DNA from: Tetraselmis striata
Taxonomy: Eukaryota; Chlorophyta; Chlorodendrophyceae; Chlorodendrales; Chlorodendraceae
Assembly: GCA_006384855.1 (NCBI GenBank)
Contig: VCJN01002617.1
Location: 34,063-98,062, forward strand
Reading direction: 5' to 3'
Length of the DNA: 64,000 nucleotides
Made by a program: the position numbers and the translations under genes. Position 1 is the stretch's first letter; each line of letters starts with the position of its first letter. Positions 31,757 through 51,098 of this stretch are shown here, in pieces. The notes under the pieces were generated by a model. That model searched no databases, was not told the DNA's origin, and worked only from the letters and a program-made list of their open reading frames with translations.

Positions 31757-34700
31757 CTAGATACCTTGCTGAAGCTCTTTCACCATCAGTTCCAGGGATT
31801 TCACCAGTTCCTGCAGCATCCTGACGGTGCCCGTCAAGCTTTTGCGGTGCTGGCTCAGCTTGAGGTTGGTGCTCATGCCGCCTTGGTCCTCCACTTCCGT
31901 GGCGGTCAGAGGGAGCAGCCGCTGCACCGGCACGCTCAAGGTGGGCGGGTTCTCCAGGTGTTCCAGCGCCTCCGCCAGCGCAGCAACCAGGGCTTGTACG
32001 GACGCCATCATGGCGGCCAGCATGGCGTCATGCGCCTTGGTGTCGGCCTGCCTGGCGCGCTGCATGCGCACCTTGGCCATGTAGCCGGCCTCCTGGGTGG
32101 CCAGGCCATCGATGTCACCCACCATGGGCATCAGCAGCTCGGACAGCAACTTTTGCAGGTCCTTTGTCAAGTAATTGGAGTGCGCCTCAAAGGCCGCAGC
32201 CCTGGTGGCCTCCACGCTCTTGCGCGACAGCTTGATGGCCTGGGCGGCTGCCTCGGCGTTGAGGCGGCTGCGGTGGTTCTGCTCCTGCACCTTCCGCGCC
32301 TCCGCCATTTTCTCCTCGTCGTCCACGCAGATGCCGCCGTTGTCGCGCAACAGGATCTGCACCACCTCGCTCTCGTGCCGGATGGCGTCATCCAGCGGAG
32401 TGTTGCCAAAGGTGTCAATGGGGTTCACGTTGCAGGGCTTGATGCCCTCGTACTCCGGCAAAGTGTGGTAGGTCAGCAGGAAGTGGATGGCACCCAGCTG
32501 GGCCTCACTGGCGGCCAGGTGCAGCGCAGTGCGGCCATCATAGTCCTCCACGTCAGGGTCGACTCCATTGGAGATCATCACCCGAAGCATGTCAATGTCA
32601 CCTGTTGCTGCTGCCTCGCACATGGTGTCCGAATGCCCTGTCAGCAGGCAGCCCTTGGCGCGCAGCAGAGCCTGGACGGGACGATGATTGTGGCGGATCG
32701 CGTCCTCCAGCGGCTCATTGCCCATTCGATCCACACAGCTAGGATCCGCACCCTGAAGATGAGACACCGAGCACAGCCAAGCGCGTCAGTGAGGAGACCC
32801 CAGCATGGAGACAGTCAGCGGCGACCTGCACGAGGTCTTCCCGCAACTGCGGCACACAAGGGAAGCTAGGCTGAGTGATGGCAGTTGCTTTCCGCTCCTA
32901 GGGAAGCATTGCCGCATGGCAGACTGTACTCCATGGAAGCTGCACGTGCTGGGAGGCTGTATGTATGCTGTCTGATGATATTTTGACACCACACTCGATG
33001 CAGCACGAAACTACCTCCCAAACCCAACGAACACGTTTCGCTGTTGGGTACGCGCTGCAGGCGCACACCGGCTGCCACGCCCGGCTGGCATTGTCACAAT
33101 GTGCAACACCATGCCGCGCCAGTGCCATTACTGTGCGGGCAGATTGTACACATCCATAGGTGGTTGCTCAATGCGGGGCGGAATTGCGGATGGGAAAGGG
33201 AGCGCAGGTAGAGAGCCCACCTGCTCCAGGAGATACTTCACAACGTGCGGCCTCCCTTCGCTTGCCGCCAAATGCAGCGCAGTGCGGTTGTCGTAGTCGC
33301 ACACGGAGGGGTCGCCCCCATTGTCAATCAAGCGCTTGATCATCTCCATGTCATCGTCCAGGACGGCCTGGCATAGCATGCAGGCCAGATCCTGGTCGCT
33401 GTGGCGGAGCTGGGCTCCGCGCTCACGCAGGATCAGCGCGCAGCTGTCTTGCTTGTGGCGGACTGAGGGCATCAATGCACGTATATACACAATGTCAGCC
33501 ATGGCATGCCGGCGCCTGAGCAGGGCGCAGATAGCAGGGATAGTCATCTAGCGGCCACCGAGCGGATTGGCTTCAGCATGGGGGTAAACATGCGGAGGCA
33601 AATGGGCAACAAGGGTAGAGCAGGATTGATTGATTAACCAAGCATATCAAGTGCACGGCATGAAGCGCGGCATCCTTGCGAAAAATCCCTTGATGTGGTC
33701 ATTATTGTTCTCGTTTGAGAGATCGGCGGAGGAGTTTTATTTTTCGCCCCCGGGACTGGACTGGCAACAGTGAAACCTTTGCGGCAGCGTCTCTGCGACG
33801 GCCGTTTAGGCAGCGATCCAGTGACGGAAAGCCCTGGGCGGGCGACGCTTCGTCATAGTCATCAAGCAAATTGCCGAAGCATTCTGCAAGACTAACTGGA
33901 GGCCAGTGACGGAATTTCCAACACTGTTGGATCGCCGTCTAAAACACTTCCAATAACATACCCAGTTTTCTGTTTGACATTGAGCGCTATAAATCTGACA
34001 TGGTATGGAAGTTTGGAGAAAGACGCAGTGGGCGCAGCACTCGGATGGACCTCAGTTAGACGCAGGGTGACATGGATGCTGTCCCAACAGAGGCATCGGG
34101 GGGGGGGGAGGGGGGTCTCACCTGCATCGTTCATCGGTGTGTTGCCGTGTTTGTCAATCGGATTTATGTTGGCACCAAAGTCGTCTAGCAGCCCCAGCAG
34201 CAGCTCCGTGTGGCCATAGCAGGCCGCGATGTGCAAACAGGTGCGCCCGGCATTGTTGCTGCTGTTCACATTCACCACTCCAGCCAGAAACATCTTCTTC
34301 AGCTCCTCCAGTCCCCCGCGCGCTGCGGCCCGGAGGGCGCGCTCCACAGCTTCCACCTTGCGGCGGGTCTGGAGCTTACGGATGGTGTGCTTCAGGTTGC
34401 CGCCCACGAGGTCGTCAATATCATCTTGGAAGGAGCGCCCGCTTGCGCCGGACGCCATCGAGCCAGCGCGATTGATGGTGTACTCGTACGAGCTCAGCGC
34501 GTTGCGGCCAATCACCTCGTCCTCTTCAGGGTACATCTGCAGCGCCTGTGAGCCGCACAGCAAAGCTTCAGCGCCCCGCCACTCCAGCACAACGCCCTGC
34601 GCTCTACCTCTCATGCGCCGCTGGGAGCCGCCGCCAGCCCGCCAGCTCCCAGATCCGCCGCCTTCCATCGGCACCGGTGCGGCACATGCACACGGCACAT

Positions 34701-37700
34701 GCACAGCGTGCATGGCGGGAGGGCTGGGGGCCACAGGGCCAGGCAGCGCACATGCTGGAAGATGCTGCGCTCCAGCAGGAAGCACGAAGTTGGCTGCAGA
34801 GCGCGGCAGGAATAGATGTGGCGCATGCCAAAGAAGAAGCTGAGATCGCCGACGCAACGGCCCGGACCGTGCTTCCCGTCGGGCATTGGCTCCTCATTTT
34901 CCACCTGCGCATGGCAGCCATCGCAGCAGTCAGCGAGCGGCGCACTAGCAATGGGGGGGGGGGGGGGGGGGGTGTTCATGCCACGCGCCAGGGCCGCACC
35001 TCAATCACGCTCTCCACGGAGCCGGTCGAGATGATGTAGAGGTACCTTGGCATTTCGCCGGTGCGGAAGAGCACCTCGTGCGGCGTGTAGGTGCCTTCCT
35101 GCAGGAGCACGCTCACCGAGTCGAGGAAAGCATTGGAGCAGTCCTTGAACAGCGGCAGGTCGTCCAGCATGTCGCGGCTGATGCACTCTGCGACCTGGAT
35201 CTGTGGTTATTGGGCGGGGCGGTCCGCATGGAGCTCAGCAGACTGCCGCACAGCGGCGCACTGGTGCCGGCCCGGCCTGTTTTTTCTTCTGCGCCCCCAG
35301 CCTGTGTGTATTCTTTTCGTCAGATACAATTGGCGGTTGGGACCCCGCATGTCTTTTTGCCCCCTCCGGTTGTAGAGCACACATACCGTAACCACGCTTT
35401 CGGTTCACTATATAGATAGTTTATATAGTAAAGTGGTCATATATATGTGTATATATATGGTATAGAATACTTATGCATATTTATGTACTATACATTTATT
35501 ATCTAGGGTATTTAGATAGTATATATAGATAGAGCATATATCATTACGTATTGTATGCAACGCATATTCCATGCAGTATAAAGTATTGTAGACGACATAG
35601 AGCGGGCGCCCCCCCCCCCCCCCCCCCCCCCCCGCTGCGCCAAACCCCGGAAGAGAGAATAATTAAATTGACCTGAAATCTGTCAGGAAAAAACACGATT
35701 GTTGCACGGAATCTTCAACTAGATGGTGGAAGACAATTCACTATGTTGTGACTACTCCTCCGCAAATCCAATTGTTAATTGCCGAGGTTGCTGATGATAG
35801 GGTGTCTTCATTGGGGGGGGGGGGGGGGGGGTCAAGTAACCGGGGCGCACCTGCAGGGAGTGGCTGATGAGCTGGTAGATCTCCGAGAGCGCCCACTTCT
35901 GCCCATTCTCAGCGGTGCTGCGCGTGTGCGCGCGAATCTCCTCCGCCAGGTAGTTTGAGATGCCCTTGCGGGACTCGATGTAGTTCTCCACTGTCGCCTG
36001 CCTGGCGCGCGCCTCGGCCACGGCGTCGTCCGACTGCATGATCATCGCGGAGATCTCGCCCAGGACGTACGAGAAGAACACCATCGTGACCAGCATCAGC
36101 ACCAGGGAGTACACCACCTCCTGGAACGTCGACGGCGTCAGCTCGTCGACGTTCCCGACCGTCCGCAGGGAGGACGACACGAAGTAGAAGGAGAGCAGGT
36201 AGTTGTCCCACACGCCGTCCTCCCGGGTGGCGCCGTACTCCACGCCGCGGTCCATCCAGGCCGGCTGCCCAAAGGTGCCGATGTAGAGGAAGACGCACGC
36301 GGTGAGGTGCAGCACCGTCACTGTTGGGCGCACAGGCGGAGGCACGGCCGCAGGCGGGTGTGAGTCCAAGCGATGGCGCATTGACTGAACCTCTGAATGC
36401 AACGCTACAAGCCCCGGCTGCATCCCAAGTACCGCCCCTCACGCGTTGCCATTGAAAACCTGCCCGCTCCGCCAACCAACTCCAGGTGCATATCATATAT
36501 TTGCAGGCTCTGTAATTCGCCAGCTTCAAGTGGAGCCGCCACCTGTCAGGTGATATAGAATCGTATTATGGTCGCACTATACTATCAACGACACCTCTCG
36601 CAGAGTTGTGCAGCCACATGCGTTTACTCGCGAGCAAATAATACGCACAGAGCTACGACTACGACTAACAAGCCGCTTTTAAGCGGCTTGTGTCGATCTC
36701 CTGCGTTGCTTTTCAGCGGTGGATCCGTTACCAGTGGCCTTTTTGTAATTCACACCAGTAACACATACACCGCTAATAAACGCAGTACTCGTACAGTATT
36801 CCCAAATCGATCCGTGTCAGTTCTTGCATGATATCGTACATGCCGAAACTGCACCAGCAACGCCGCGATCAATCGACTACCGCACTCGTGCCGAGTTGCC
36901 ACTTCAGTCTCACGACTGCCCTTACAGGTAGTCGAATGCCGAATATAGTCTAGACTGCAGACATGCGCAGCAATGCACATGGAGTGATGTAGTCGCTATC
37001 TCTCAGTCTGGGCAGTGGCCCCTGCAACGTGTGCCATCCTATTCTGCCCAGACTGTCTAGCGTCAAATAAAATGCAGAGCCCACCGTACTACTATACGGT
37101 AAACGGCGCAGCAAGCCTGACAGCAACACGTGCATCCCCGGAAACTGACTCAGGCACAGCCCGGCGCAGCTAGGAGAGCTGGGGCACGGGTCGGAGCTAG
37201 CAGAGGAGCAACAGCACACGCATAGTGCTAGTGATACTACCACGGTTCTTTCGGGCCCGAGATGGCTCTGAGCAACATGCCCGAGATGGCTCTGAGCGCA
37301 CACACTCGCTGATTAAACCACGACCTGCATGCCCCATATCTGCGGCGGCCGCGGCAGGTTGTTGGTCCGCCATGGCAGGCACCGGGTGCATACTGGTGGA
37401 CGCGACATTAGTTCATCAAGGGGCAGAAACCCGGGGGGCCGGGGGGGGGGGGGGGGGGGGGATACCAGTGCGGTACAGCAGCAGCAGGGCGTTCTGCAAG
37501 CTGCCCTGGAAGGTGAGCTTAATGCCTTCCTTCCACCTCCTTTGCGCGATGGGGAGGCGCAGCATCTGGGCAAATAAGCGCGTCGTCAGAGGCTACTGCT
37601 GCCAGATGATAGCACGATTGGGCTAGGGTTTATGGGTTTGGGGTTTAGGGCTTAAGGGTGGCAGCATGGGCATTCAGGGTGAACGAGTGCAGGGGGAGTA

Positions 37701-38346
37701 GGGCGGGGGAACATAGTGAGCAGCGGCGTCATGGCGCGCCTACAACACTCCAAAACAATCGCATGGCGCGATTGAACTGCGGCGGCGCTGCGAGTCCATA
37801 ACACTCCCCGAAAGTTACACGATATGAAAAGGCTGCTGAGTGGCGGGAGGCAGCCGCACCTTCGGCAGGCTCAGCCAGGCCTGGACCTGCTTGCTGGAGT
37901 CCCAGGCAAACATGGGCAGCGGCAGCGTGGGCACCAGGTCGATGAGAAAGTCGCTCGTGACGTAGCGGTTGAAGATTTTGCGGGGGTTGGTGACGAGCAC
38001 GGAGCTCTCGTCGTAGTAGGCGGTCAGAAAGCCGACCACGATGTCGAGGACAAAGAGCGCATCCGTGACCTGCGCGGGAAGGGCGGGCATGCGCACGCCA
38101 TCAGCGCCGTCCAGCTGGCTTGGGGCGATAGTTGTGGGGAGGGGCTTGTCGCCGGGGGGGGGGGGGGGGGGGGGGCTTACAAAGGTGACGCTGATGACGG
38201 TTTGGGAGCGCTGCAGCTGGGCGGAGGAGATGCGAATGGGCACGATGATGAAGTTGTACAAGGCTGCGGCGTAGATGATCCACCGCCAAGCCTTGAGCAG
38301 GAACGAATCCGGAGAGATGATGAAATACGCGGACAACGGCGTCTTC
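31757..38346 (-). other. Channel module 2: S1-S6, CNBD, ankyrin repeats and tail
   Basis: Exons 21-29: 38181-38346, 37860-38069, 37466-37565, 35851-36320, 35000-35200, 34752-34904, 34122-34545, 33221-33462 and 31757-32752. S1 reads WRWIIYAAALYNFIIVPIRI. S2-S3 (LFVLDIVVGFLTAYYDESS ... NRYVTSDFLIDLVPTLPLP) is very close to plant Shaker channels. The pore region is YFVSSSLRTVGNVDELTPST, with GNV where GYG is expected, followed by S6 (LVLMLVTMVFFSYVLGEIS). The CNBD begins DLPLFKDCSNAFLDSVSVLL and has VGDLSFFFGMRHIYSCRA in place of the phosphate-binding cassette. Ankyrin repeats (GRTCLHIAACYGH, NRTALHLAASEGR, GRTALHLAASEAQ) and a ~200-residue helical tail end the protein. Confidence 0.85.
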
Positions 38347-41300
38347 CTGCAGGAGCGGCACATGGGTGGGAGGAGGGTTGTGTGTGTGTTGGGGGGGGGG
38401 GTCATGTGTCAGCCTGCGCGCCATTGGGAAGGGGGGGGGGGGGGGGGGGGAGGGAGGGAGGCACAAGATGGTAAAGTGCGGGGCGCACTCTATGTCCGCG
38501 GCCGAAGTTTCCTCCACGACGCCATCATCATCCTGCAGCTCCGGGTCCAGCAGCAGCCGCAGAAACTTGACAATGGCCTGCCACGTGATCTGCCCCTCCG
38601 CGGAGGTGCCCGACGCCGCGCTGACGAGGTCCACAAACATGGCCACGTGCGCGTCTGTGATGCCGTAGTTGGGGAACACCTCCCGCAGGAAGCCCCGGAC
38701 GTTTTGCCGGCGGAGGGGGCGCTGCAGCGAGCCTGCCCAGGCCGTGAAGGCGGCCTCGTATCGCGGCACCACGTCGGGGTCCGTCAGCTTGGCCTGCAGC
38801 TTGGCCTTGCGGATGGGCAGCCTGATACCCAAGGCGCTGTTCAGCCGCGCCGCGACTCTCGTCTCGCTCTTGCTCTTCTTCCTCTCCTCTGCCACACCCA
38901 GCAGCATCTCCTCCTCCTCCGCGCCATCGTCCTCTCGAACCTCAGGCGTGGCGTCCGTCGCCGGCGGGTCAAGGTACTTCACAAAACAGTCGAGAAACTC
39001 CTCCTTGCTGTGAGACCACAGCAGCCGAGCACCGCCGGCGGGCATGTCAGCGCAGTAGACGGGACGCAGAGGGCGCTTGCATGCGACAGCAAGCGGCTTG
39101 TGGGAAGCCGGGGGGGGGGGGGGGGGGGGGGCACTTCATGAGCGGCTCCTGCATCTTGTCCGCGGCAAATATGGCCGTGAACAGCGGCTTAAACTCCCCG
39201 AGGCGCTTGCCAACGTCCACCATGCACTTTGTGATGGCGAAGTCGTCCTCGTTTCTGAAGAGCTCAAACACATCGGAGATGATGTCCATGGCCAGCAGCA
39301 CCTCCTGCACTCAGCAGCAGAGCGGGGCGCATTGAGGACGGCAGCCAGGCGCCAGGCGGCTGCGGGCGGCACCGTCAATCGGCATGGGCGGAAGCGAGAT
39401 GCGCGAGCTCACCTGGCGAATGATCTCCGCCTTCTTGTGCGCACCCTGCGCCTCGGCGAGCTTTACCTACAATCCAAGGGGGGGGGGAGTATGTGAGAAC
39501 TCAGCTGCGCCTGTCAGTTAGCGGATGACATGACTACTGCGAACCAGGCTGAGCACCACCCGGGTACGTCCACCTGGTCGACCCACAGCGCCCCCACCAG
39601 CAAAGCCCCCACACACACCTTGCGAATGGAGCTGAGGCGCAGTGGGCCGGTGGGGAGGACGTTGCTCTGGCGCCGGGCCGCAAGCTTCTTGTCTGGGACG
39701 TTGGCGGTGATGCCGTGTCGCACAACGTTCCAAAAGTAGGCAGAGCGCACCCACAGGCCGTGCACCGTCACCGTCTGCTCGACCGTCCGCTTGCCTGACC
39801 CCTGAGCACGGTTGGCAGCAAGTGGGCAACAAGCCCACGGGCAAGCCCGCACCTTTCCACCCGGAATGCAGCACTAGCAGACATGGATGTACAGTGCGGT
39901 GGTGGACTGTGCGCAGTGGCACGTGGCGCACAGTGGAGTAGCGCAACACCACCCATGGTGCGGGTGGTACGTCAGGTCTCACCTGCGACTGCTCTACCTC
40001 TGCGAGCACCCTCTCGACGGAGTCTCTGTCCACGCCATTTGGTGACAGGCTTGCCATGAAACTGGCCAGCTCATCCTTGGTCATTTCGTCCGTGTTGCGC
40101 GTGTGCGTGTAGAAATGGTCGATGAAGGTGTCGAAGCCGATCTGCGGGGCAGGCGGGTGCGGCGGGTGGGGGGGTGAAGCGCCGTGAGGAAGCTGCCGTG
40201 GGGAAGCTGGAGCATCGGACCAGAGGGACAAGCGCGCACGGGCAAGAAATCCGTACCTGCAACAGCTCCAGTTGCGTGATCACCAGGCTCTTGAAGCTGT
40301 TGGCCACCGCCTTGGGCGGGAGGCCGCTGGCCACTTCGGTGGGTCGATGGCCTGCAACACCCGCTCACCGTCAGCAGAGCGGGACAGCAAAGGGCCAGGC
40401 CACTGCAGGTGTTACATAAGCATATGTGGGGGCGGGGGGGGGGGGGGGGGGGGGGGCGGAGGCAGCAGCCAAACCGTCGCTGATGTCGGCATCATCGTCC
40501 TCGTCCGACACGTTTTCGCGGGCCTCGTCAAGGTCGTTGTAGAGGCTCAGTCTCGACTGCGAGACCCCGTGCACCTCAAGCGCGCTCCCCCTAGCCACCT
40601 TCGACACCGCCACCGACTCAACTCGGCGGTAAAACGTCAGCCACTCGTGAGTAGCGCCCGAAACACCGTCGAAATCCTGCAGGGCGATGCGCGTTGCATG
40701 CGGTGCGTGAGTTGTGCGGAGGACACTCGTAGCGGGGCGGGACTAGGGGCGGGGAAGGGAGTGCAGGGGCGATGCTTTGTACCCAGCTGGTAATCAAGGT
40801 TCCGCCGCCGAAAAGGGGACCGGGCAAGAGGGGGGCGGGGACAAGCATGCGCACCTGTGGCGTGAGGCGCTTGTACAGCACGTCCTGCGCCAGCTGCTGG
40901 ATGGCCTCCCACAGCGCGGCAGTAGCTTCCATCATGCTTTCCGACAGAGTGATGTAGCTCTCAAGGATGGAGGCAACCGCAGGCCCGATGCTGACAAGTT
41001 GCTGCATTGCCTGGAGGTTGGAGAGGCTGACAACGGCCACCTCCTGCTCCGTGGTCTCGTGCATCTCTTTTCTGTGCAGGCCCTGTTGGCCAGAGCACGA
41101 CCGGGGCGCAGGTGAGAGAGGCGCCCTCCCCCCCTCCCCCGAACAAGCAAGAGTGCCTGCAACGGGACGAAAGCATTGACATGCCGCACATGGTGCCCAA
41201 GCAGCGGAGGGTGGGTGGAGGCTCACCATCTTGTGCATTGCCTTGACCGCGTCGCGGGCTTCTTGCGTGGCGTCCTCCATTTTCTTGGCCAGATCGGCAG

Positions 41301-44300
41301 CCGCCTTGGTGACCTCCGCCGAGGGGCTGGGACCGACCTTGCCCCCGTAAGCCTTGAGCAGGACGGCGCAGTGGTGATTGCCGTTGCACAGCGCGTCCTC
41401 CAGTGGCGCGCAGGACCAGCGGTCAAGCACGTTTGGATTGGCGCCAGTGGAGAGCAAGTACGACACCGCCAGCAGCTTGCCCTTGGCGGCGGCCACGTGC
41501 AGCGGGTAGCGCCTGTCGTAGTCGCCCTGATCCGGCTCCACACCCGCCTCCACCAGCATTGTCATCATGCGCACGTCGCCCACGGCCGCCGCGTCGCATA
41601 GCTTGCCAGCACCGGTTTTGGTCATGTTCTGTTGGAGCCGCCCGCCCGCCCTGCCGATGATGGCGGCCACCAGCGCGTGTCCGCTCTTTACAGCGTCCAT
41701 CAGCGGCAGCCCGCCCCAGCGGTCCGTCCGGTTGACGTCCGCCCCGTGAGACAGCAGATACTCCACAGACTTCTGTGCGCCGGCCGCTGCCGCAAGGTGC
41801 AGCGCCGTGCGGCCATCATAGTCGCCCAGGTTGGGGTCAATGCGGTTGGCCACCAGGCGCTCCAGCTGCGGGCGGCGCACACACAGATCAGAGGCGATGA
41901 GCGAGCACAGTGCTGGCGTCTCGTGTCCTCTCAACCTTCCATGCTCCTAGCGCCTAGGTGCCACTTGTTTTTCAACGGCGGTGCGTGGCTGTGCTTTGCC
42001 ACCCTTCCAGCGTTTTCCTATTACATTCTGCTAGTACCTGTAGCCTCTCTTCTCGTGTTGTTATTATTGACGAAGTTCCATCGCACCAGTTTGTTTAGAC
42101 CTACAGAGTTCCAGGTACGAAGGATTATGTCGAGATCATTCAGCATGTCTACCTACACCGCCGCTGACTGACGATTACTGTCTACACGGTTACATAATGC
42201 AGTTTCCAGTACTCGAGTTCGGGTACTGATACTACCAGGACGACAAAACATTCGCGCGCTGTACTACTATTGTCTAGTGTAGTAAACGTAATCTCACCGT
42301 CGCGCATCGGCCCGCATTCCTGTGCTCCTTTCTGTTCTCAAACAATGCACTAACCGTGCCCTGAATAGATGGGCAATACACAACCAAACGATGTACTTAA
42401 TGCTTCACGAGATCAATTCACAATACGGCCAAGATGTATCTGTCGGAATTCTTTCAAAAAAGCCAAATCAACAACTCATATGTTGTTCTATTCTGATCTA
42501 ATTGCCTAACTTCCATCCTAGTATACTGCAAGTTTGGCAGTGCAATTGCCCCATGTTCCTCGCCCGTGCAGCAGCATCCCTGTTGGCAGTTCTTCTCACC
42601 CCTTGTTGGCTCGCATGGCATGCAGCTAGTCGGCTGGTCGATGCTCCTAGCTCTCGATAGTAGGCGGACATCAGCACGTGGAATAAACGTTAGAAATGTT
42701 AATTACCTATATATGGTGCGGAGTTGAGTTAACACTCTAATTATTAAGATTATTGATATTATTGTTATTATTGTTATTAAGATTATTGATTAATTATTAA
42801 GATGATACTATTAGAAGATTATTGAAAAGAGTATGAAGTTCACATTATTAGGAGATAATGATGAGATATATAATAAGAATAATCATTGAGTTAACGCTCT
42901 AATAAATATTATACATGTACAGATCAGAGCGCAATAGTGCGGAGTTAGGGTGGGCGCAGGGAGCACCTGCGCCACGTCCTCCTCCGAGGCGGCGACGCAC
43001 AAAGCAGCTGCAGGGTCCAGCACTGTTAGCACCGCGCCGGCCTTGGAGAGCAGCTCCACCGCCATGCTGTTGTTGGACATGAGGGCCACGTGCAGCGGGG
43101 ACTGCCCCCAGCGGTCTGGGATGTTCTTATCCGCGCCCTCCTCTAACAGCACTTGAAGCACCTTTACGTTGCCGCTGGAGGCTGCCAGGTGGGTCACTCT
43201 ACGGTAGGTGGGGCACACCGTGAGGGCACACCGTGAGGTATGTAAGATGTGACAATGGCTGCATCAAACACGGGGGACTCTGCAAACTCCGCCAGATGGA
43301 TTGCCGCTGTAGCCGGCCAGGAGGGGCACTCACCCACAAAGGTCATAGTTAGTGGTGTTGACGTCCACACCCTTGCGGATGACGTTCCGGACAAGGTCCA
43401 CCTCGCCCATGTCCACCGCGTATATGAGCTGGTTGAGCAGGCCATCACGCGAGCGCACGACGGCCTCATGTACAGTCTGCCGCAAGAGCGCAAAGTCCTC
43501 ATCATCGGTGTCCCCCGACCAGCCCGGCAAGTCCTCGCCCTGGGCGTCCAGCCCAAAGGTGGCCAGCACGTTGCTGACAATGACGTCGTTCTGCTCCGGG
43601 AAGTTGTGCAGCAGCTCGTTGTAGGCCCCGCGAGAGAGCACCAGCACCTTGGCATCCGCAGTGGAGCGGCACACCACCTAGCGCAGCGACGTTTGCAGCA
43701 TCAATGCTGCGCATGGCTTCCCGTGCCCCAGGTAAGCTATGCAGCGGCGTCTTTGCAGTGGCGCAAGCAGCAGCACCGCAGAAGGGGGGGCAGGGCCCGC
43801 ACCTTGAAGGGCTGTGCACTGCTGAGAAAGAACGCAATCTCTCCCACCACAGACGGAATGTCCAGATTGTCGCCATACACTGAGCGAACCACCGCCCCGG
43901 TGTCTCCCTGGATGATGTCCAGCACGCCGCCAGCAACAAAGCCGAGCTCACGCCCGATGTCACCCTGCCGGATGAACTCCTCTCCGGGCATGAGGTACGT
44001 CTGCCAAATGTAATATCTGTCAGGAACCTCCCGGGAGAGCTCAATCTTGAACACGTAGCAGAAAAGAGAGCGGAATCAATGGACACACGTACCACTTGCA
44101 GGTTGAAGGTGAGGGTGGAGATGAACATGTCACTGCAGCCACGAAGCGGCGCTCCTTGTGCCATGCTGCTCTCCACCACGTGGGAGAACTGGGCAGACGC
44201 CACTTTCAGCGCCAGCGCGCGCGGAATGTCGATCGCGCCGGCGTAATTCTCCTTCAGCTTGCGGTAGCTAAACTCCAAGTAGTGCTCCAACCTGTGCCGC

Positions 44301-46956
44301 AAGTGCGCTGGCAGATCCCGGTCGGCCACAAAGTGCTGCATCATGGACATCTTGCGGCGGAAGTCCTCCAGCGAGGCGTCCTTGGAGATGAGATGATGGA
44401 AGAGGGTACCTGTCAGCAGTCAAAATGCCATGTTGGTCGCATGTGTGTTGTTCCTATGAACAGCCAGACTTTCGGCATGTTGGAGAGCGGGGCGAGGAGG
44501 GGCGAAGTGGGGGGGGGGGGGGGGGGTCCGTATCGGATGCGTGCTTGCGGCAGGATGTCGAGCTCACCTAGAATGAACGCCTCCAATATAGTCTGCAGCC
44601 CAATGACAACCACGGCAAACAACATCTCCGACCAGTTGTCAGGCCGGAGGGAGTCATAGCCAACGTTGCTGAGGGCAGACATGCCCTTGAAGAACAGCAT
44701 GGTGTAGTTCTCCCACAGCATTCCACCGCCCGGCTCGTACGGTGAGAGAAATATGCGCTCATTGAAGCGATACAGCTGGAATTCACAGGACGGGCAGCAA
44801 ATCAGCGCGGCAATGAGGGCAGGTGAGGACAGAAAGGGGGGGGGGGGGGGGGGGGGGGGGGCACGCAGTTCCTCGCGGGCTCACCCATGTGTGTGGACCG
44901 AAGTCGCGCATCATGTCCAGAAAGTAGAAGATGCAGCCAGTCCAGTGAATGGAGAAGTACAGAATGAGCAGCAGCTTCAATACCTGTGCGCAGGCAGCGG
45001 TCGAGGCGATGCGCAATGCATTTCAGCCGAGGAGAAGTGACAACCGAACACGAAGGAATACGCGCGGGATGTGTCTTTTGCGGAGAGCGGGCAGAACCAG
45101 GCGTGGGGGGGAGGGGGGGCTCAGCTTCTGTCCTCACAGCACTCACCTCCAGCGCCCGTGCGTTCACTTCTGGCTTCATTGTCATTCGGCTGAAGTACTG
45201 CGTGAGGAGGTACAGCCGAGGAAGGCGCAGCAGGCTTGCAACCCACCAGACCTAGGGTTTCCCGAGGCCGAACTGCATGTCAGTGCAGCCCAACTTTTGC
45301 CCTTATAAAAGGTCAGGGCTGCTTGCTCAACACGTTCCCAGCACCCCCGTGTATCCACAGAGTCAGTGACGTGTATAGCAGCGCACCCAGATCGGGACGT
45401 TCAGCAAACTGTATATGTACAGCAGCGAGCAGGGCAGGATGTAGATTGGCAGGGTGTTGAGAATGAAGTGCTGCAGAATAGAGTCCTTGGTTTTGTCCAG
45501 CGTCCCGTCTTTCTTCTCCAGTGGAGTCCACAGTCGGCTCAGCATAACGATGAGAAACCAGCCATCAAAGACGGTGTCCAGCAGGAGCTGCGGTCCCCAA
45601 CCTGCAGGTGCATCAGGGTATCAATGGGAGTGCCATTGGGACCTGTCTCATGCTGGTGCCTTGGCAGGGCGATGCCTCCATCCCCACAAACTTCTGTGCG
45701 CCTCAAGGAGTTCTCTCTCAGATATGCCAAAGGGTCTATACACCGCCCCACATGATCTAACAGCAATGCTGGCCACGCGTCAATGCCATGCAAAGGCAAC
45801 GCGCATTGGCATCCAGCAACACACTTTACCGCCACATCGAAACACTGTGAAGCTAATGCGGGTGAATGCGCTGTCTGTGATTGCGCCGTAGACGCTAGAT
45901 GTAGTTCTACTGTGTGCTCATGGGTACTGTAGGCACTGTAAAGCATGTAGCCCCCCTCCCCTTTAAGACAACACAGCGAATGCCTGCTGGACTGCACAGA
46001 GGGATCTCACCTGGTGTAGCAAGAACGATGCGGAAGCACATAGCCCAGGACTCGTACACCAGGGGGGGTACCATGGCATGCTGCCAGTAGATGTAGGTCT
46101 TAGAGCCTTGCACTATCATTGGAAGCGCTACCCCTAGCCACTTGATGGTGTCTCGCTGCGGTCTTGCTCGTGCCCCTCCTTCAAACTGAACAAGCCGCCT
46201 TTTGATCTGCATGTGGCGCACGACCACACATGAATGCGAAGATACAGTGCAGCCTGTGAATGCTAGAAATCGCTCTTGCAAAGACGGGATGGACTTACAT
46301 GGGTTTCGGGGCGCGCAGTCAGCCCTGTGAAATCCGTCGGCTCGCGTAAGATGCCGTTCTTCCTCCGTTTTTTGCCACCTGGTGTTCAGTGCTGGACGAG
46401 TCATGCATGTGCGCACTGCTGGCAAAATCGCTCGCTGTCACACCAGGATCAGAGGAATCAATCGGGGGTCCACAGCAGAAGCGCGTGCGTTAAGGGGCAT
46501 ACCTTTGGCCCGGCTCTTGCTGATCGACAGAGATGACAACATTCTGGTCATCTTCTTTAGATGCGGTTCTGGGCCGGCTGCTGTTTCACCGGGGCTTCCA
46601 GTTGATGTGCTACCACTGCCAGGTTTCAGCCCCAGGAATGCTGGCCGGACAACCGCCGGCTGTGTGTCAATGTCCACACTCTTGCATGGAGACTTGGAAT
46701 GCCCTTTGTTGTTGTTTCCCAGATAAGGCATCGCGCTGATATGCTGCGGCTGGGTGCGACTCCCTGAGGAACCGTCGGACCCGCTTGCACCGCTGCTACT
46801 GCCGCCCACATCATGGGCGGAGTGATCCTGAGCCATGCCGAGCGGCACCACCTTGGCGTATGCCTGTCCCGCCTTCCACTGCCATTGCATCTCTGAAGAA
46901 TGCACAGAGTCTGCGTCTGTTTGTGGTGCTGCTGCCGGAGCAAACGGCTCCTGCAT
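31757..46956 (-). CDS. Giant tandem CNBD-ankyrin channel protein (two six-TM modules)
   Basis: Twenty-nine exons were placed from 46956 (ATG of MQEPFAPAAAPQ) down to a TAG at 31757. The listed boundaries join in phase with no internal stop, for 7686 nt or about 2561 residues. Order: Ser/Gly-rich N-terminus; S1-S6 module 1; cyclic-nucleotide-binding fold; ankyrin repeats; helical tail; a ~430-residue linker; S1-S6 module 2; second CNBD fold; ankyrin repeats; helical tail. Each half resembles the plant AKT/algal CNBD-ankyrin channels, normally about 800-1100 residues. Plasma-membrane cation transport is the expected role, but both selectivity filters are non-canonical. Alternative: two adjacent genes. 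The exon beginning with ATG at 41064 follows a weak acceptor, and the 162-bp gap before it is open in frame, so a boundary near there cannot be excluded without transcripts. Confidence 0.75.
37623..37658 (+). repeat. Degenerate telomere-like TTTAGGG array
   Basis: Five or so imperfect units (AGGGTTT, ATGGGTTT, GGGGTTT, AGGGCTTAAGGG) lie inside a channel-gene intron. The unit matches the plant/green-algal telomere repeat. Too short and diverged to be a working telomere. Confidence 0.55.
38489..42966 (-). other. Ankyrin block, coiled tail and inter-module linker of the channel protein
   Basis: After a 1.1-kb AT-rich intron (41866-42966), exon 12 (41227-41865) gives further ankyrin repeats (YDGRTALHLAAAAG, RRYPLHVAAAKGK). 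Exons 13-20 follow: 40855-41064, 40475-40676, 40257-40351, 39983-40141, 39619-39801, 39413-39466, 39135-39304 and 38489-39007. The linker has an acidic run (SDEDDDADISDG), an EF-hand-like helix-loop (THTRNTDEMTKDELASFMAS) lacking a full set of Ca2+ ligands, and a Lys/Glu-rich segment (EEEEMLLGVAEERKKSKSE). No known domain was recognised in the rest. The phase of each junction is compatible with the next, including into the S1 exon of module 2. Confidence 0.65.
41866..42966. other. Long AT-rich intron of the channel gene
   Basis: It separates ankyrin exons 11 and 12, whose sequences join smoothly (EEDVAQ then LERLVANRIDPNLG). At 1.1 kb it is among the longest introns of this gene. The segment 42.7-42.9 kb is made of ATTATT/GATTATT-type low-complexity sequence unlike the GC-rich exons. 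No ORF or mobile-element signature was recognised. Confidence 0.7.
42967..46378 (-). other. Channel module 1: S1-S6, CNBD and first ankyrin repeats
   Basis: Exons 2-11: 46299-46378, 46011-46206, 45387-45601, 45147-45251, 44885-44983, 44568-44775, 44093-44409, 43803-44045, 43334-43677 and 42967-43198. Transmembrane segments include WFLIVMLSRLW, IYILPCSLLYIYSLL, a weakly charged S4 (LLRLPRLYLLTQYFSRM), S5 (LLLILYFSIHWTGCIFYFL) and S6 (FAVVVIGLQTILEAFILG). The pore helix and filter read MSALSNVGYDSLRPDNW where plant K+ channels have TTVGYGDLHP. The CNBD has PGEEFIRQGDIGRELGFVAGG and GEIAFFLSSAQPFKVRA, like the non-ligand-binding plant Shaker type. Ankyrin repeats follow (THLAASSGNVKVLQVLLEEG). 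The intron between 44093 and 44045 would be only 47 nt. Confidence 0.8.
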
Positions 46957-49432: not shown

Positions 49433-51062
49433 TCATGAAGGAGGCACTGGGAAGGCCACCGCTGCGGAGTCCTGTTGGACTTGGAAGTGGCGGAGGGGGG
49501 CGATGTGTCCAAAGAAGAACCACGCGCCAGGAGAAGGAAGAACGTTGGGGTCGATGTAGTCCAGAACGACATCGGAGTTAGTGGCCCAACCGCCTTGGTA
49601 GCGGATGTGGGACAGTGGCGCCCCGATGGCGTTTGTTGCAGAGGCTGCGCCCTTGCGTAGACTGTGTGAAGTCCAGGAAGTGCCAGCAGGAGGGGCAGCG
49701 TTGATTAGGTTGACCGCTGTATGTAGACAACCAGTCTGACATCGTAGCTGCAGTCCAAGGTTTTGACTGCTCAGCCACATTGACAGCCCAGAAGTTGGAG
49801 GCAGCCAAGCCAACAGTAGCCAGGGGGACAGATTGGACGTTGTCGATGAAGTAGCGCAAGAGTCGTGCCACTCGAGGGTGCTCGGACACTGGAAGGAGAA
49901 GCACGCGCAGGTCGTCGGGTCCCCGACGGCCAGCGCGACCCTTCTCGCGGTAGACATGTAAGGTGATGTTGTAGGTGTCGACATGCACATCTTGCGCTCG
50001 ACAGGAGACGCTAGTAAGGCCCCTGGCAAAGAACAGGAAGTTGACAACCGAGGCCAGGAGGGCTCGGTAGTCGAGGTGGGACTCTGGGTAAGGAGCAGAC
50101 ACAATTAGCTCGGCCTTTGAGACGAAGCGGTAAGCTACATCCGCAGGCAGAGGGACACGCAAAGGGGCAGCGTCCAGTCGGCGCTGCCGCAACATTAACC
50201 CACGCCTTGCCGAAGTGAGGTGTAGGCTGTCCTTGGCGATCGGGACGAGGTTGTGCAGCTCGAAGAAGGTGTTGATGGCAGACAGGTAGGGCTGCAGCGA
50301 CTTAGCTGCGATGTGACCTCGCTCCCCGATCCAGGCAACGTACCGAACAACAGTAGCAGTAGTCGCTTCCAGCGGGCTGATGTTCTCGGAGTCGTGGCAG
50401 AACTCAGCGAACTGAGACAGTCTGCCGGCGTAGCTCTTGAGGGTCTGCGCGCTGAGGGAGCTGGAGAGCAGGTCCAGCGTCCGTTGGCCTAGCTCGTCTG
50501 AGCCGAACGCGTCCTGCAGCCGAGATCGCAGTGACGCAGCCCATGGAGCGATAGCTGCGGGCTCGTCGATTACGTAAGTGCGTCGTTTTACTGACAGAGT
50601 TCCACCGGCACGGCTACTGTTCGCAAAGTACTCGGCAGCAGCGGTTAGGTTCCCGGCGGTTGGCCGGTAGTTGCTGGACGGGTTTGCAGTAGCTCCAGTA
50701 CGGGTTTGCGGGGCTAGGTTCAGGTAAGAGGGCCGCCCCGCGCGCCCTTCGCGCTCGTAGCGCCTGTCCCGTGCGTAACGTACACGCGCGAAACTTGGTC
50801 GTTGCGAACCGGTTGTAACACGCAGTGTAACAACCGACGAACGCAGAGATGGGGTTGTAAGAAAGGCGGATGGTTGAGCCGCCATGTGCAGGTGTGCGGA
50901 TGGTTGAGCCGCACTCGGCTGTAGCTGTAAGAAGCGCCGCACCGAGGAAGGTCTAGATGAAGTCTGTAAGGTGGGGGGGTCAGGTCCTGACACAGGGCGC
51001 TCATCCCGCCGTTGAGCTGCAAGGGTGCGTCTTGCGGCGGTCACCGAAAGGTGGCCTCGCAA
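49433..51062 (-). pseudogene. Tyrosine recombinase of the DIRS/PAT-like element, frameshifted
   Basis: The frame runs open from 51062 to about 49720 and then continues in another frame to a stop at 49433. The N-terminal region holds an SAM-like core-binding domain (LSAQTLKSYAGRLSQFAEFC). The catalytic domain has an Arg in FFARGLTSVSCRAQDV, Lys in YREKGR, the HxxR box in SHSLRKGAAS, and Trp and Tyr in GGWATNSDVVLDYIDP, i.e. the R-K-HxxR-W-Y set of tyrosine recombinases. The break is at 49717-49724, where TGTA is repeated in tandem. The relic at 4.4 kb lacks this duplication, so it is a lesion and not programmed frameshifting. No ATG is obvious at the 5' end of the open frame. Confidence 0.85.
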
Positions 51063-51098
51063 GGCTCCTGCAGCTCCAACGAGCGGCGCCCCACGCCG

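Follow-up and report, generated by a model that had tools for sequence, protein, structure and literature searches.

An uninterrupted exon chain on the minus strand of a Tetraselmis striata contig raises the question of whether two complete channel modules, each with an S1–S6 region, a CNBD and ankyrin repeats, have been fused into one protein or belong to two neighbouring genes. The DNA analysed, here referred to as the window, is a stretch of 64,000 nucleotides of contig VCJN01002617.1. In our best reading, the locus is very probably one gene, predicted to encode a tandem two-repeat SKOR/GORK-like channel whose S1–S6/C-linker/CNBD/ankyrin subunits are joined by a linker, and it is one of at least six such loci.

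The predicted gene and its two modules

The chain was rebuilt from the ATG at 46956 to the TAG at 31759–31757. It comprises 7659 nt and 2552 residues with the sole stop at its end, and thus bears out the sequence-only reading of 29 GT-AG exons connected in phase without an internal stop; the protein length proposed there, about 2560 residues, was slightly too high. All 28 introns possess GT-AG borders and all 28 acceptors are CAG or TAG. The single weak acceptor mentioned earlier may be that of exon 2 (ACTGAACACCAG), whose pyrimidine tract looks poor. The poorest donors by eye are those of exon 14 (GTTTGG), exon 19 (GTGCCC) and exon 23 (GTATCC). Introns 12–21 measure 108–181 bp each, while introns 11 and 23 are long (1101 and 1145 bp). 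When the proteins of three paralogs were aligned back to the window, 22, 24 and 20 of the 29 exons were recovered exactly, a result that is not fully independent, since the window protein had served as query in modelling the paralogs.

Poly-C/poly-G runs of roughly 14–30 bases, estimated by eye, are present in introns at 35.6, 39.1 and 40.4 kb, upstream at 47.5 kb and elsewhere; several of them directly adjoin splice sites, and such runs are likely hard to sequence. Beside the channel gene, a stop-to-stop frame at 49581–51098 of the minus strand contains a phage-integrase N-terminal SAM-like domain (PF02899, 5.7e-8) and is possibly part of a tyrosine-recombinase mobile element.

We then searched the Pfam families in three ranges of the protein, residues 1–1029 (first half), 1030–1566 (linker) and 1567–2552 (second half), with E<=0.1. 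As had been proposed, the chain passes through the S1–S6/CNBD/ankyrin series twice, and each half matches the Ion_trans, cNMP-binding and ankyrin families (Table 1). The scores of the first half are weak, with 27.4 bits for Ion_trans (cut-off 25) and 24.3 bits for the cNMP-binding family (cut-off 27.5). Profiles made from four genes were also compared with PDB sequences; that of module 1 matched SKOR over profile positions 13–469 of 508 and that of module 2 matched GORK over positions 7–440 of 445, so that the closest solved relatives of both modules are the plant SKOR/GORK channels. No KHA domain was matched by Pfam at the C-terminus of the window protein at E<=0.1, and the NCBIfam search gave nothing useful. 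The two halves are indeed diverged, as the sequence-only reading stated; their identity is 26% across 788 residues and drops to 21% for the channel core.

Table 1. Features of the predicted tandem channel gene (window coordinates)
Feature	Position	Strand	Evidence
Entire gene as predicted (2552 residues, 29 exons): module 1, linker, module 2	31757..46956	-	spliced chain, paralog alignments
Exons 1-3: N-terminus (aa 1-179), poorly conserved, and start of S1 region	46011..46956	-	exon chain, alignment
Module 1 S1-S6, Ion_trans, aa 218-453	44408..46089	-	Pfam match 2.4e-6; SKOR matched by four-gene profile at 1e-43
Module 1 selectivity filter S-N-V-G-Y-D, no GYG	44653..44670	-	alignment of genes
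Module 1 CNBD, aa 560-648	43606..43997	-	24.3 bits, under cut-off 27.5; SKOR profile match
Module 1 ankyrin repeats, aa ~700-1005	41299..43452	-	Ank_2 1.3e-36
Linker, exons 13-20, aa 1030-1566 (537 residues)	38489..41082	-	recognisable in three paralogs; no Pfam match
Module 2 S1-S6, Ion_trans, aa 1584-1818	36040..38294	-	Pfam match 2e-14; GORK matched by four-gene profile at 1e-49
Module 2 selectivity filter T-V-G-N-V-D-E-L, no GYG	36139..36162	-	alignment of genes
Module 2 CNBD, aa 1918-2002	34537..35092	-	51 bits, 1.4e-13
Module 2 ankyrin repeats, aa ~2075-2395	32231..34320	-	Ank_2 2.2e-43
C-terminal tail, aa 2396-2552	31760..32230	-	exon chain, alignment

Related loci in the genome

The genome searched comprises 224 Mb in 2903 contigs, among which the window's contig is C2113. 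A RuBisCO small-subunit match lies on a contig with Ion_trans matches and is therefore probably nuclear; 1IR2, 7JFO and 1GK8, Chlamydomonas entries, are among its best PDB matches, which makes a green-algal origin of the genome likely. Besides C2113, the linker search returned C1946, the near-identical pair C2737/C2497, read here as two haplotypes of one gene, and C833; each of them has module 1 first, then pieces of the linker, then module 2, as in the window. Stop-free spliced chains could be drawn through C1946 (2463 residues), C2737 (2427), C2497 (2379) and C833 (2285). These models come from a home-made spliced aligner driven by the window protein, in which stops are penalised and a stop can be bypassed via a false intron, and several paralog linker exons are doubtful; read with the C2737 protein as query, C2497 shows one stop. 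GC-AG is the best reading for some paralog introns (C1946 16437; C2737r 11193 and 13693).

Module searches added two more distant loci, C2077 and C165, where module 1 is followed by module 2 about 6 kb further on the same strand. Counting haplotype copies once, at least six gene loci contain both modules. The window's module 1 has a second copy on C1798, truncated by the contig end inside intron 11, and with this exception no lone copy of either module of similar match strength was present among the best candidates listed. C2762 matched as one module by tblastn, with no ankyrin match within 10 kb, and C1957, C1519 and C1944/C835 gave isolated weak module matches; these may be other channels. 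A search of viral contigs for relatives yielded 228 pattern matches, none of which was confirmed. A series of six consecutive Ion_trans matches (best 3.4e-64) was also noticed at G000:C901:176-5725, perhaps a four-domain Cav-type channel.

Conservation of the linker

No Pfam family was found in the linker (residues 1030–1566) at E<=0.1. Among the four nearer genes (window, C1946, C2737 and C833), pairwise identity is 15–42% in the linker versus 40–71% in the modules, and conservation in the four-gene alignment is lowest in exons 13–15. The linker is nevertheless recognisable. Its spliced-alignment scores are 696 in C1946, 466 in C2737 and 256 in C833, against maxima of 47, 57 and 54 in 60 dinucleotide shuffles per locus. 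The distant loci reach 42 (C2077; shuffle maximum 58) and 54 (C165; shuffle maximum 53). Similarity to the window linker is thus not recognisable in C2077 and at most marginal in C165, and chains drawn through that stretch are arbitrary and say little. For exons 14–15 alone, the score in C1946 beats all shuffles (79 versus a maximum of 46), while those in C2737 (51 versus 57) and C833 (41 versus 43) stay below the maximum.

The intron positions are also shared. Seventeen of the 28 window introns are common to all four nearer genes, at most two residues apart and in the same phase, a count that may be somewhat inflated because the paralog models are query-driven. Four of these 17 lie in the linker, at aa 1204, 1257, 1393 and 1566. 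Paralog linker introns exceed those of the window: the longest have 558 bp in C1946 and 752 bp in C2737, compared with 181 bp.

The linker profile of the nearer genes gave 72 PDB matches up to E 1, and among the 60 matches listed all but one appear to be EF-hand proteins. Sub-threshold Pfam EF-hands were found in the linkers of C165 (best E 0.011) and C2077 (0.024), which contain canonical-looking EF-hand loops (DEDGSELIEDGE in C165 and DEDGTEILDDDE in C2077); Pfam found no EF-hand in the linkers of the window, C1946 and C833. The linker may thus contain divergent EF-hands. Its assignment as an EF-hand region is not established, the best PDB match having an E of 0.014 and Pfam being sub-threshold or without match. 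An AlphaFold2 model of exon 20 alone had a pLDDT of 57, too low for use.

History of the two modules

We built a tree of the modules with 12 rows, the six first and six second modules of the six loci. All first modules fall into one clade and all second modules into another (100/100), and the branching on either side is nearly mirrored, with C2077 and C165 opposed to C833 together with the trio of window, C1946 and C2737. The inner forks have bootstrap values of 80–100%, some of them under the star threshold of the tool, and the innermost trio is resolved on the module-2 side only. Separate clades with nearly mirrored branching indicate that the modules split before the loci were duplicated and that the pair was copied as a unit. 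This agrees with the old duplication proposed from the divergence of the halves. Moreover, none of the 10 module-1 introns has a module-2 partner within 4 residues, consistent with an old split.

Ka/Ks was computed between haplotype copies. For the window versus C1798, the ratio is 0.17 (part of exon 1 to exon 11, with 69 gapped codons excluded); for C2737 versus C2497, it is 0.03 in module 1, 0.12 in module 2 and 0.56 in the linker, with single linker exons ranging from 0.22 to 0.93. The linker value, which takes in doubtfully modelled exons, shows weak constraint on the predicted linker. Single-base indels occur in the haplotype copies, in exons 7 and 11 of C1798 (L053) and in one module-2 exon of C2497 (L027-L028), and may be assembly errors or broken alleles.

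Selectivity filters and other functional residues

The aligned modules of the six loci contain no GYG filter (0/12). In module 1, the filters of the four nearer genes are SNVGYD, SNLGYD, TNIGYD and TNFGYD, with N, G, Y and D invariant, and those of the distant loci are TNLGYE (C165) and SHLSYE (C2077). The module 2 filters of the six genes follow the pattern [TS]-x-G-[NVQL]-V-x-[EG]-[LM], that is, GNV, GVV, GQV or GLV. The modules of the six loci likewise differ from TVGY/FG, the consensus filter of the PMC7576140 set. With GYG lost in both modules, the pore is probably not of the classical K+-selective type.

The basic residues of S4 are few in module 1, and several are located near the end of S4 in module 2. 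We also compared by eye the position of the phosphate-binding cassette arginine expected in CNG/HCN channels. Module 1 of the aligned genes has Q or H at this position; in module 2 an R or K occurs, shifted by one residue towards the N-terminus, and its equivalence is ambiguous.

One gene or two

The single fused gene is well supported by the same module order in five further loci and by the homologous linker in three of them, as well as by the shared linker introns with their phases and the nearly mirrored trees. The sequence-only reading had left open two tandem genes with a boundary in the linker, and we therefore considered whether two neighbouring separate genes, duplicated as a block, could have been falsely joined by the exon chain. 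The conservation minimum at exons 13–15 falls where such a boundary might be sought, and C1946, C2737 and C833 have a methionine at the exon-15 position (MTKAF/MAKAF) that is a possible second start, but the window has a valine there. Likewise, the paralog linker introns, as long as 752 bp, and the unrecognisable linker of C2077 and C165 would suit separate genes, whereas introns 12–21 of the window leave scant space for a 3' end and a promoter; the available part of PMC11291117 gives a median spacing of co-linear single genes of 3415 nt in Chlamydomonas and 2518 nt in A. protothecoides. Phase-matched linker introns among the paralogs speak against two genes as well, as does the lack of a lone module of similar match among the best candidates listed, apart from C1798, which is cut by the contig end. 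The gap sizes of the window, the shared linker introns and the nearly mirrored trees together make two separate genes a highly improbable explanation.

A bicistronic mRNA, with two ORFs translated separately, seems hardly credible to us. Nuclear bicistronic genes are known in green algae, with inter-ORF medians of 183 and 40 nt in two species, but the known loci, as described in PMC11291117, have their own stop and start codons, whereas the frames of the window and of the paralog models are open throughout, and the linker exons on either side of the possible boundary align in frame. The window thus matches neither this pattern nor the spacing of single co-linear genes. It is also unlikely, if less so, that the gene yields single-module proteins besides the fused one, by use of poly(A) sites or promoters inside it. 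Introns 11 and 23 are long and could house such signals, but a scan of 30.5–47.5 kb of the minus strand found the poly(A) motif TGTAA at 10 places, scattered over introns, exons and the region beyond the stop, which is uninformative and gives no positive sign. The copying of both modules together also argues against this explanation, though extra short transcripts stay compatible with it.

Proposed assembly of the channel

If one gene encodes both modules, two copies of the tandem protein would most likely form one four-domain pore, by analogy with two-repeat channels such as TPC, with a fixed 1-2-1-2 order and two-fold symmetry; the sequence-only reading had suggested two subunits per pore, which is reasonable on this analogy. 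The unlike filters, NxGYD in the nearer genes and TVGNVDEL in the window, would then alternate around the pore. Gating would probably depend less on direct binding of cyclic nucleotides than on contacts among C-linker, CNBD and ankyrin repeats, as the phosphate-binding arginine is missing from module 1 and its counterpart in module 2 is ambiguous. According to the available text of PMC12742848, the GORK CNBD is thought to be closed to nucleotides, the cytoplasmic symmetry of GORK, SKOR and AKT1 is reduced to two-fold, and ankyrin dimers of adjacent subunits keep GORK inhibited. A covalent pair of subunits would favour the same arrangement, so that an ankyrin dimer pair like that between neighbouring GORK/SKOR subunits would be built into one chain here. 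More generally, tandem channels fix the order and stoichiometry of subunits, which leaves each half free to specialise.

A more far-reaching picture, which we offer only tentatively and rate as rather doubtful, is that of green-lineage covalent channel dimers at no fewer than six loci, in which the two-fold, ankyrin-paired state of SKOR/GORK would be hard-wired, unlike non-GYG filters would alternate, and a divergent EF-hand-like linker would once have sensed Ca2+, or still do so in part of the family. With this family it can be asked directly whether covalent fusion locks an ankyrin-bearing channel in the GORK-type two-fold state, and which ions pass a pore that combines two unlike non-GYG filters.

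Comparison with known channels

In each module of the window gene, S1–S6, C-linker, CNBD and ankyrin repeats follow one another as in the plant channels SKOR, GORK and AKT1. Those channels have one module per chain, a GYG filter and four chains per pore, while the window gene differs from SKOR/GORK in its two modules per chain, in lacking GYG and in giving no KHA match. In two-pore channels (TPC), too, each chain has two 6TM repeats, and a pair of chains forms the pore. Plant TPC1 has EF-hands between its repeats; TPCs are not known to possess CNBD or ankyrin domains. The CNGK channels of animals and choanoflagellates likewise have several 6TM-CNBD repeats per chain, but, according to the available text of PMC7576140, they have four repeats and are K+-selective.

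Among the open-access literature matches listed, outside which subscription papers mostly fall, no green-algal tandem CNBD-ankyrin channel was present, and the available text of the Chlamydomonas KCN11 paper (PMC7372795) contained none of five domain words. The nearest known systems are the two-repeat tandem CNBD channels described in 2020 in dinoflagellates and oomycetes (PMC7576140, main text), which the sequence-only reading did not mention. Their repeats are about 30% identical or less, and the tree sets first repeats apart from second ones, with a similar order of branching in each group. The window gene, as a genome-level prediction, agrees with them in its two 6TM-CNBD repeats per polypeptide, in the 21–26% identity of its repeats, within the limit of about 30%, and in the separate clades of first and second repeats with near-matching branching. 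It differs from these SAR channels, by their description, in its green lineage, the ankyrins in both halves and the long linker, and from that data set, with its consensus filter as given in the main text, in its two unlike non-GYG filters. The main text names Chlorophyta once, as bearing CNBD channels, and ankyrin never. Tandem CNBD channels of two repeats are already known, and what is added here is a green-lineage, ankyrin-bearing variant with unlike filters. It extends such channels from the SAR lineages to a green-lineage genome, which suggests either that fusion happened independently once more or that the family is wider than has been noticed.
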